Positions 20,750 to 22,230 of a stretch of DNA of 37,679 bases are shown here, in pieces; position 1 is the stretch's first letter, and each line of letters opens with the position of its first letter. Under the pieces are notes generated by a model. It saw only the letters and a program-made list of their open reading frames with translations, ran no database searches and was not told the origin of the DNA. The stretch spans positions 1-37,679 of the forward strand of contig DATGRI010000023.1 in assembly GCA_035303785.1 (NCBI GenBank), written 5' to 3'. Made by a program: the position numbers and the translations under genes. This stretch comes from Sphingobacteriaceae bacterium. GTDB taxonomy: Bacteria; Bacillota; Sulfobacillia; Thermaerobacterales; RSA17.

Positions 20750-21211
20750 GTGATCCCCCTGGACCTGCAGCTGCTCATCTTCGCCGTCATGACCTTGACG
20801 GGCATCTTCATCGGCGTCTGGTACGACTTCAACCGGGCGGCCCGGGAAAGCCTCCGCTGGCGCGGCCCCCTGGGGGACCTGCTGGATGTGGTTCTCTGGG
20901 CCGGCGCCGCCTTTCTCGTCTTGTCGGCCCTCCTCCTGAGCAACTGGGGGGAGTTCCGCTTTTACGTCCTGGTGGGCCTGGGCCTGGGCGTCTGGGTCTA
21001 CCGGGCTTGGGCCGGCCCGGTGGTGCTGCCTTGGTGGAGGAGCTTCTTCCAACTGCTGCGCCGGGCCGCCGGCGCCCTGGGCCGGCTCTCGGCACCCATT
21101 AGAGGGATGAGGGACCGCCTGCCCCGGTTGCCGGGGCTGCCCAGGCTTCCCCGCCTGCCCCGGCTCCCCGCCTTGCCGCCCCTTTTCCGCGCCTTGAAAC
21201 CGAAGAAATAG
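20750..21211 (+). CDS. yabQ: Spore cortex biosynthesis protein YabQ
   Basis: A 153-aa membrane protein of the YabQ family, required for cortex formation and located in the outer forespore membrane in Bacillus. Three hydrophobic segments are visible (about 5-24, 43-65, 70-88), with the family feature GIFIGVWYDFNRAARE after the first. The C terminus (about 124-145) is a run of tripeptides of the form LPR/LPG/LPA/LPP, not part of the family core and very basic. GTG 20750 has no good SD, so translation probably depends on coupling to yabP. Confidence 0.85.
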   Translation: MIPLDLQLLIFAVMTLTGIFIGVWYDFNRAARESLRWRGPLGDLLDVVLWAGAAFLVLSALLLSNWGEFRFYVLVGLGLGVWVYRAWAGPVVLPWWRSFFQLLRRAAGALGRLSAPIRGMRDRLPRLPGLPRLPRLPRLPALPPLFRALKPKK

Positions 21212-21381
21212 CCTGCTTGCCCCGGGAGCATCCCAGGAAAAATGGGCCGGGTTGGCCCAGCCGGCAGGGATTCGCCCTCCGAGGGTGAAAGGTGTCATTT
21301 CAATGTAGTAAGTTTGTCCACAATTTGTACACAATCTGTGGATAAGTAACATGGGCCGGCGGCGGTTGAGGGGCAGCTCGG
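21212..21381. other. Intergenic region between yabQ and the HTH gene
   Basis: The first 80 bp are GC-rich with a GGGCC-type imperfect hairpin. From about 21292 the sequence turns AT-rich, unlike the rest of the window, and holds three DnaA-box-like 9-mers. No convincing SigA promoter was found: possible -10 matches around the boxes lack spaced -35 partners. Confidence 0.6.
21314..21345 (+). promoter_or_regulatory. Cluster of three DnaA boxes
   Basis: TTGTCCACA (21314-21322), TTGTACACA (21325-21333), and TGTGGATAA (21337-21345), the last being the exact reverse complement of the consensus TTATCCACA. The first has one mismatch to TTATCCACA, the second one mismatch to TTWTNCACA-type consensus. 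Start-to-start spacing is 11 and 12 bp, about one helical turn, in an AT-rich patch. Known from Bacillus: such clusters outside oriC mediate DnaA control of nearby genes. Confidence 0.6.
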
Positions 21382-21657
21382 GTGCAGATAGAGATCCGGG
21401 GCATGGAAAAACTGAGCTTCCGCGAACGACAAGTAGTGGTCCTGAAAGAAACGGGGCACAGCACCGAGGCCATCGCCCGGCGGCTGGGCATCACACCGGC
21501 CACGGTGGCCACCTTGTTCAACCGGGCCCGCAGCAAGGGCTATCAGGTGGTGGCGGTCATACCCGGCGATGCCCTGGGGCTGTTTGATCCCGATCCCCTC
21601 ACCGATGAGGACGACGAGACCGGGGCCGGCCGCGGGTCGCAAGGCGACGAGACTTGA
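21382..21657 (+). CDS. Small sigma-70 region-4-like helix-turn-helix protein
   Basis: A 91-aa protein not assigned to a named family. Residues about 10-52 match the sigma-70 region 4/LuxR-type HTH pattern: LSFRERQVVVLKETGHS, AIARRLGITPATVATLFNRA. A short hydrophobic segment follows (YQVVAVIPGDALGLF) and then an acidic tail (about 68-91). It is far too short for a sigma factor and lacks region 2, so it is either an autonomous regulator or an RNA polymerase-associated factor; that is inference. GTG 21382 has GAGGGG eight bases upstream; ATG 21403 is an alternative. It sits between yabQ and divIC, where Bacillus has no gene, and is preceded by the DnaA-box cluster. divIC follows after 12 bp. Confidence 0.75.
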   Translation: MQIEIRGMEKLSFRERQVVVLKETGHSTEAIARRLGITPATVATLFNRARSKGYQVVAVIPGDALGLFDPDPLTDEDDETGAGRGSQGDET

Positions 21658-21669
21658 TGAGGAGCGGGC

Positions 21670-22230
21670 ATGATCAGGGGCAGGAAGGCTAAAGGTTCAG
21701 GACGCATTCGCCGGCGCGGCAGCGCCGGCAAGGCCCGGGGACGGCAGGAGCTGCGCTTGGTGCCGCCCCAGCAGGCGGTGAGGGAGCGGTTTCGGCTGCC
21801 CGTGGGCGAGGACGGCAGCGGCGAGAAGGCCGCGGCCCGGGAACGGAGCCGCCTGGGCGGCCTGCCCTGGAACCGCATCATCGTGCTGGCCGCCGTAGTT
21901 TACTTCCTCATAACCTTCGTCTCCCAGGAAGCCCAATTCGCCAGCCTCCGGCAGGAAATCTACCGGCTGCAGGGGGAGATCGCCCTCCGCCAGGCCGAGG
22001 TGGAAGCCTTGCGGGAGCGGCGGGACTACCTGAGCAGCCCCGCCTACGTGGTGGCCGAGGCCCGGCGCCGCTTCAACCTGACCCGGCCCGGGGAAATCCA
22101 CTACTTGACCATCTGGGAAGAAGGCGAGGAGGAGTTCCAGGCAGCCGGCCAGGATGAGGAAGAGGAACTCCCGGAAGAAGTTGTCCCGGATGGCATGGTA
22201 GAGGATCCCCAAGAGGAGGCCGGGCGGTAA
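21670..22230 (+). CDS. divIC: DivIC/FtsB-type septum formation initiator
   Basis: Bitopic division protein that links FtsL and DivIB/FtsQ in the divisome. Layout: a long basic N-terminal cytoplasmic tail (about 1-66, many Arg and Lys), one membrane helix (about 69-85, IIVLAAVVYFLITFV), an extracellular coiled coil (about 86-120, SLRQEIYRLQGEIALRQAEV), the conserved YVVAEARRRFNLTRPGEI region, and an acidic tail (about 150-186, rich in Glu). The 186-aa length exceeds Bacillus DivIC (125) because of both tails. ATG 21670 follows GGAGCG. It is in its usual place before yabR. Confidence 0.9.
   Translation: MIRGRKAKGSGRIRRRGSAGKARGRQELRLVPPQQAVRERFRLPVGEDGSGEKAAARERSRLGGLPWNRIIVLAAVVYFLITFVSQEAQFASLRQEIYRLQGEIALRQAEVEALRERRDYLSSPAYVVAEARRRFNLTRPGEIHYLTIWEEGEEEFQAAGQDEEEELPEEVVPDGMVEDPQEEAGR

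Follow-up and report, generated by a model that had tools for sequence, protein, structure and literature searches.

The helix-turn-helix (HTH) gene between yabQ and divIC was preceded by a ladder of head-to-tail 11-bp units, which was conserved in its sequence anatomy, linked almost exclusively to this gene and, in most species, contained units identical to DnaA boxes. The ladder may be a composite operator, through which the HTH protein, joined in most species by DnaA, would control its own gene and often divIC; this reading was given a probability of about one half. The window, the whole stretch of DNA analysed (37,679 nucleotides), was contig C23 of a 1.64-Mb assembly. The features around the ladder were as follows:

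20750–21211, + strand: yabQ, the upstream neighbour of the HTH gene (Pfam, 2.7e-17)
21266–21289, + strand: sigma-H-like promoter by consensus match, AGGGATT (21266–21272), 11 bp, GGTGAA (21284–21289)
21303–21346, + strand: array of four head-to-tail 11-bp units (21303–21313, 21314–21324, 21325–21335, 21336–21346), consensus TTGTNNANAAN
21314–21322, + strand: DnaA-box-like 9-mer TTGTCCACA, in array unit 2 of 4
21325–21333, + strand: DnaA-box-like 9-mer TTGTACACA, in array unit 3 of 4
21337–21345, − strand: perfect DnaA box TTATCCACA, in the array unit nearest the gene
21382–21657, + strand: HTH gene with a GTG start (91 aa), predicted helix core of sigma-70 region 4 / GerE type between two strands
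21670–22230, + strand: divIC (Pfam, 1.4e-12)

The initial annotation had placed a 91-aa HTH gene between yabQ and divIC, and the open reading frame and the Pfam matches of its flanks agreed with this. Upstream of the HTH gene lay HU, yabP, and yabQ, and it was followed by divIC and an S1-domain gene. The stop codon of the HTH gene was separated from the divIC start by 12 nt, and both genes probably belong to the same operon. In B. subtilis, divIC lies directly after yabQ. A literature search for yabQ, divIC, and a helix-turn-helix found no publication treating all three together. The AT-rich patch that had been noticed in front of the gene was also evident, with a GC content of 0.33 at 21296–21350 compared with 0.67 for the whole window.

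The four units of the window array, in order ATGTAGTAAGT TTGTCCACAAT TTGTACACAAT CTGTGGATAAG, followed each other in an exact 11-bp phase. Three DnaA-box 9-mers, one of them perfect, had been described here at about one-turn spacing. All three were present, two on the plus strand and one on the minus strand, and the spacing proved to be exact, whereas the count of three had missed the fourth unit at 21303–21313. The 9-mers TTGTCCACA and TTGTACACA each differed from TTATNCACA by one mismatch. Together with TTATCCACA, they gave the arrangement expected of a DnaA-regulated promoter, with boxes in the promoter region and at least one of them near the consensus. When scored with a matrix derived from 133 other loci, the array reached 35.5, compared with 9.0 for the second-best position in the window and a top score of 11.8 in block-shuffled windows (n = 60). 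A chance cluster was ruled out by these shuffles, by the relatives, and by genome-wide pattern searches.

Of the 141 distinct upstream regions of the HTH gene pooled from all searches, 135 contained an array, which was called present when its score exceeded 99% of the null. The distances between pairs of strong units in 54 upstream regions of the class were 11 bp (133 pairs), 22 bp (91 pairs), and 33 bp (50 pairs), with almost none between. The ladder usually contained 3–6 units of the consensus T T G T N N A N A, in which G3 was conserved in 96% and T4 in 99%, and it ended at a median of 19 bp from the start codon. The units were ordered by position. The unit nearest the gene was mostly TTGTGGATA, and was TGTGGATA in 77 loci; the middle units were TTGTACACA or TTGTCCACA, and the distal units were TTGTACTAA or TTGTAATAA. 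The array extended far outside the class, to Desulforamulus, Thermincola, Sulfobacillus, Syntrophomonas, and Carboxydothermus.

The uniqueness of the array within each genome was assessed by pattern searches rather than matrix scans. A strict three-unit pattern matched in 11 of 61 genomes, always before the HTH gene, and gave 0 control matches, so the many equal clusters across the genome that would have spoken against the proposal did not occur. With two mismatches allowed, 40 genomes were matched, nearly always at the HTH gene, and the other matches fell in oriC regions (e.g. G060 and G006) or in isolated places. A regulon of further ladders was rejected, as no recurrent second target appeared beyond the oriC regions and isolated single matches. 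The clearest copy away from both oriC and the HTH gene was a ladder of the same 11-bp type near a thiolase-like gene in G047 (L328 around 1510–1560; G047:C17:40822). In the genome of the window, the dnaA promoter region (L005, G000:C63:22140-22200) contained a three-unit 11-bp box group including TTGTGTACAA, which resembled the HTH array.

The array was absent from all seven HTH-less genomes among the 61, although yabQ was retained. In five of the seven, yabQ and divIC were located on one contig without an array, accompanied by the S1-domain gene in four. In G027, yabQ and the S1-domain gene were recovered with an unmatched DivIC-looking ORF between them, and in the seventh genome the contig ended inside yabQ. 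The array was thus missing where the yabQ–divIC interval lacked the HTH gene, which indicates that it tracks the HTH gene and not divIC. Since the gene and the array are adjacent, their co-occurrence would also be expected if DnaA alone regulated the gene. A third regulator could read the ladder while the HTH protein acts elsewhere, because the tie of the HTH protein to the ladder is one that we infer; however, the array follows the HTH gene alone and is lost along with it, and a single conserved target makes this explanation less economical. It was considered very improbable.

DnaA-box identity was widespread among the arrays. An exact box was contained in 80 of 135 arrays, and 126 of 135 had a 9-mer within one mismatch of TTATNCACA. 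The expected conservation of boxes in relatives that keep the gene was therefore largely seen, but not in all of them, as nine of the 135 arrays had none. Arrays without DnaA-like 9-mers occurred at L208 (Desulfoscipio geothermicus), L214, L190, L148, and L058, in species that do have canonical boxes close to dnaA. DnaA is therefore not the sole reader, and a reader other than DnaA is needed. A further candidate, L206, had DnaA boxes directly downstream of the array and was left out of the count.

The arrays also differed from origins in composition and spacing. When HTH upstream regions were compared with oriC regions of similar total length, TTGTANTNA occurred 43 times versus once, and TTGTACACA 65 times versus twice. 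Minus-strand boxes on the same strand were spaced mostly by 11 bp in the HTH arrays (16, against 4 at 12 bp) and mostly by 12 bp at oriC (7, against 2 at 11 bp). The box-free arrays, the bias in TTGTANTNA and TTGTACACA, and the spacing together indicate that the conserved element is a phased TTGT ladder, in which DnaA boxes form a frequent but dispensable layer.

The binding of DnaA to the HTH array appears plausible from its sequence, because the perfect box has neighbours 2–3 bp away. E. coli DnaA favours pairs of boxes separated by 2 or 3 bp (PMC11317965), and the low-affinity sites of E. coli oriC are 2 bp apart (PMC6727663). These preferences would also suit regulation by DnaA alone, in which DnaA anchored at the strong gene-proximal box spreads over weaker 2-bp-gapped boxes toward the promoter, much as in the low-affinity arrays of E. 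coli oriC, and the HTH gene is simply a member of the DnaA regulon. In keeping with this reading, the DnaA-box quality of the units dropped from gene-proximal to promoter-proximal positions, and the other promoter-type perfect boxes of the same genome were located at dnaA, gyrA, and nrdR. The box-free arrays in species with canonical oriC boxes and the difference in minus-strand spacing argue against it, however, as does the rarity of comparable arrays at other DnaA-type promoters, and DnaA as the only regulator is unlikely. Perfect and weaker boxes 2–3 bp apart in a promoter are likewise found in the B. subtilis sda promoter, the double DnaA boxes of E. coli, and low-affinity arrays of oriC. 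The present ladder differs from these in its phase-locked TTGT units, including the TTGTACTAA and TTGTAATAA types, and in that some arrays have no DnaA box.

The 1.64-Mb genome contained seven perfect DnaA boxes, at dnaA, gyrA (two), nrdR, the HTH array, and two apparently intragenic positions. Perfect boxes were present both at dnaA and in the HTH array in five of five genomes of family-f2, and these were the only perfect boxes genome-wide in G003 and G006. The two boxes in the gyrB–gyrA interval (L006, G000:C63:29438-29511) were 65 bp apart, with a weaker box beside each. In the nrdR promoter (L001 1480–1530, G000:C21:2832), an NrdR-box-like palindrome (ACACAATATATTGTGT) was immediately followed by the perfect DnaA box.

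Conversely, the HTH protein alone could read the ladder, and the likeness to DnaA boxes would then be incidental, arising from a TTGTNNANA site that overlaps the DnaA consensus. The strict 11-bp phase, the single target per genome, the arrays without DnaA boxes, and the nearly constant G (about 96%) at the third unit position all agree with this explanation. It does not readily account for the gene-proximal unit, which in most species was the universal DnaA consensus including the 3' flanking base; the base following TGTGGATAA was C in 49% of cases in arrays and 48% at oriC. In addition, unit positions 5–6 were coupled to positions 7–9 (GG with ATA; CC and AC with ACA), as expected from DnaA boxes in both orientations. 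Sole reading by the HTH protein is therefore somewhat unlikely, although it ranks as the strongest competitor of the composite operator. The third box base depended on the strand, with G favoured 133:7 on the plus strand and A favoured 99:19 on the minus strand. This asymmetry was rejected as proof against DnaA, because minus-read units retained ACA at DnaA-box positions 7–9.

The conserved unit TTGTNNANA at an 11-bp phase and the several arrays without DnaA boxes show that a plain DnaA-box cluster does not describe the array. The proposal of a DnaA-responsive regulator thus survived in part: DnaA binding is plausible and the boxes are mostly conserved with the gene, but the simple cluster did not stand. 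Judged from the sequences, autoregulation by the HTH protein would account for the universal part of the array better than a DnaA-box cluster. Co-variation of the recognition helix with the array was weak (p = 0.0035); a lower array score went equally with rare residues in other parts of the protein, and the co-variation was not counted as support.

One clear orthologue of the HTH gene was present in 54 of 61 class relatives, with 56–82% identity over the aligned core, and the gene order was mostly kept, usually between yabQ and divIC. In a phylum sample of 249 genomes, 102 carried the gene at E ≤ 1e-20; carriers included Desulforamulus, Desulfofundulus, Thermincola, Syntrophomonas, Sulfobacillus, Carboxydothermus, and Carboxydocella. 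Within the family, hardly any variation was seen in the recognition helix or in the motif KGYxVV. In G028 the gene (L061, G028:C1:3441343-3441587) was split across two frames by a frameshift or a sequencing error.

The only curated matches of the HTH protein were generic helix domains, Sigma70_r4_2 (PF08281; 1.4e-9, 37.9 bits against a gathering cut-off of 25.7) and GerE (1.8e-6), and no curated NCBIfam cut-off was reached. The predicted structure consisted of a strand (residues 2–6), three helices, and a second strand (residues 55–59), with pLDDT values of 92–98 over residues 1–60. The helix core matched DesR, region 4 of SigF, and GerE with Foldseek probabilities up to 1.0, but with E-values above 0.03. 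The match covered a region-4-like segment (residues 8–52 of 91), and sigma-70 region 2, which serves core binding and −10 recognition, was not found in the protein. From the generic domain matches and the predicted helix core, the HTH protein is seen as a stand-alone DNA-binding domain and not a sigma factor. The initial annotation was right in likening it to sigma region 4 in its HTH, though this does not extend to a sigma factor, and in placing the gene outside named families: it represents a conserved HTH family without a name, of the sigma-region-4 / GerE helix class. The protein resembles NarL/GerE and sigma-70 region 4 domains in sequence and predicted helix core, but it lacks a receiver or other sigma regions and its core is flanked by strands.

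Of the 135 loci, 77 had the pattern AGG[AG]WW-N10-14-G..GAA ahead of the array, compared with 0.7% of shuffled sequence. A further 27 loci had a TATAAT that in most cases directly adjoined the array; the Sulfobacillus-type loci are an example. The sigma-H consensus is RnAGGAWWW – 11/12 bp – RnnGAAT; the window elements AGGGATT and GGTGAA depart from the strict form and matched the relaxed pattern. The same genome contained a sigH gene whose score exceeded the curated cut-off. The promoter at 21266–21289 may drive the HTH gene and probably divIC too, and its sigma-H-like sequence leaves room for expression linked to the transition phase or to division.

The array starts about 14 bp past the −10 element and would cover approximately the first 50 transcribed bases, so that a protein bound there would block transcription. 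Several copies of the HTH protein may bind the ladder head-to-tail, one per helical turn, and such a multimer on its own ladder would make the gene repress itself, which is the most likely reading. As the ladder incorporates DnaA boxes in this and most related species, DnaA could bind there too; in vivo, it might tune expression with the replication state through the perfect gene-proximal box and the weaker boxes 2–3 bp away.

Self-repression by multimers would be the most economical mechanism, by analogy with BldC of Streptomyces, which forms a cooperative head-to-tail multimer on a variable number of direct repeats spaced by roughly one helical turn (PMC5859096). BldC (MerR-like, 68 aa) shares with the HTH protein a small stand-alone DNA-binding domain, and its sites have the same layout as the present ladder of direct repeats, mostly 3–6 units at exactly 11 bp. 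However, BldC is MerR-like and reads AATT-type repeats, whereas the HTH protein has a predicted region-4/GerE-type core and putative TTGTNNANA repeats; a MerR-like winged HTH fold was not seen in its predicted core.

The DnaA-box cluster had originally been likened to that of sda, a sporulation checkpoint gene of Bacillus. The presence of the HTH gene was not tied to Spo0A. Neither Spo0A nor YabQ could be detected in G013 and G038, which retained the gene, and both were present in seven genomes that lacked it; this makes a sporulation-only role unlikely. On this distribution, a purely sporulation-linked role was rejected, and sporulation-checkpoint logic was not specifically supported for the locus; a role in division, or in cell-cycle control more generally, is the better fit. 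G013 and G038 (L043 and L042) were genomes of 1.5–1.6 Mb, in which the HTH gene was accompanied by a DnaA-like array variant.

The HTH protein would represent an uncharacterised regulator family found in roughly 40% of the genomes in the phylum sample, with a predicted HTH–array site that is short, periodic, and nearly unique per genome. Bacillus models such as sda may not hold in deep-branching Firmicutes. Tentatively, and with less confidence than for the composite operator itself, we propose a widely conserved and previously undescribed Firmicute regulator family that controls itself by forming head-to-tail multimers on a phased ladder with DnaA boxes, so that replication initiation and the regulator level jointly set the HTH–divIC division operon. 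This would be a concrete link between replication initiation and the division and sporulation gene cluster in deep-branching Firmicutes.
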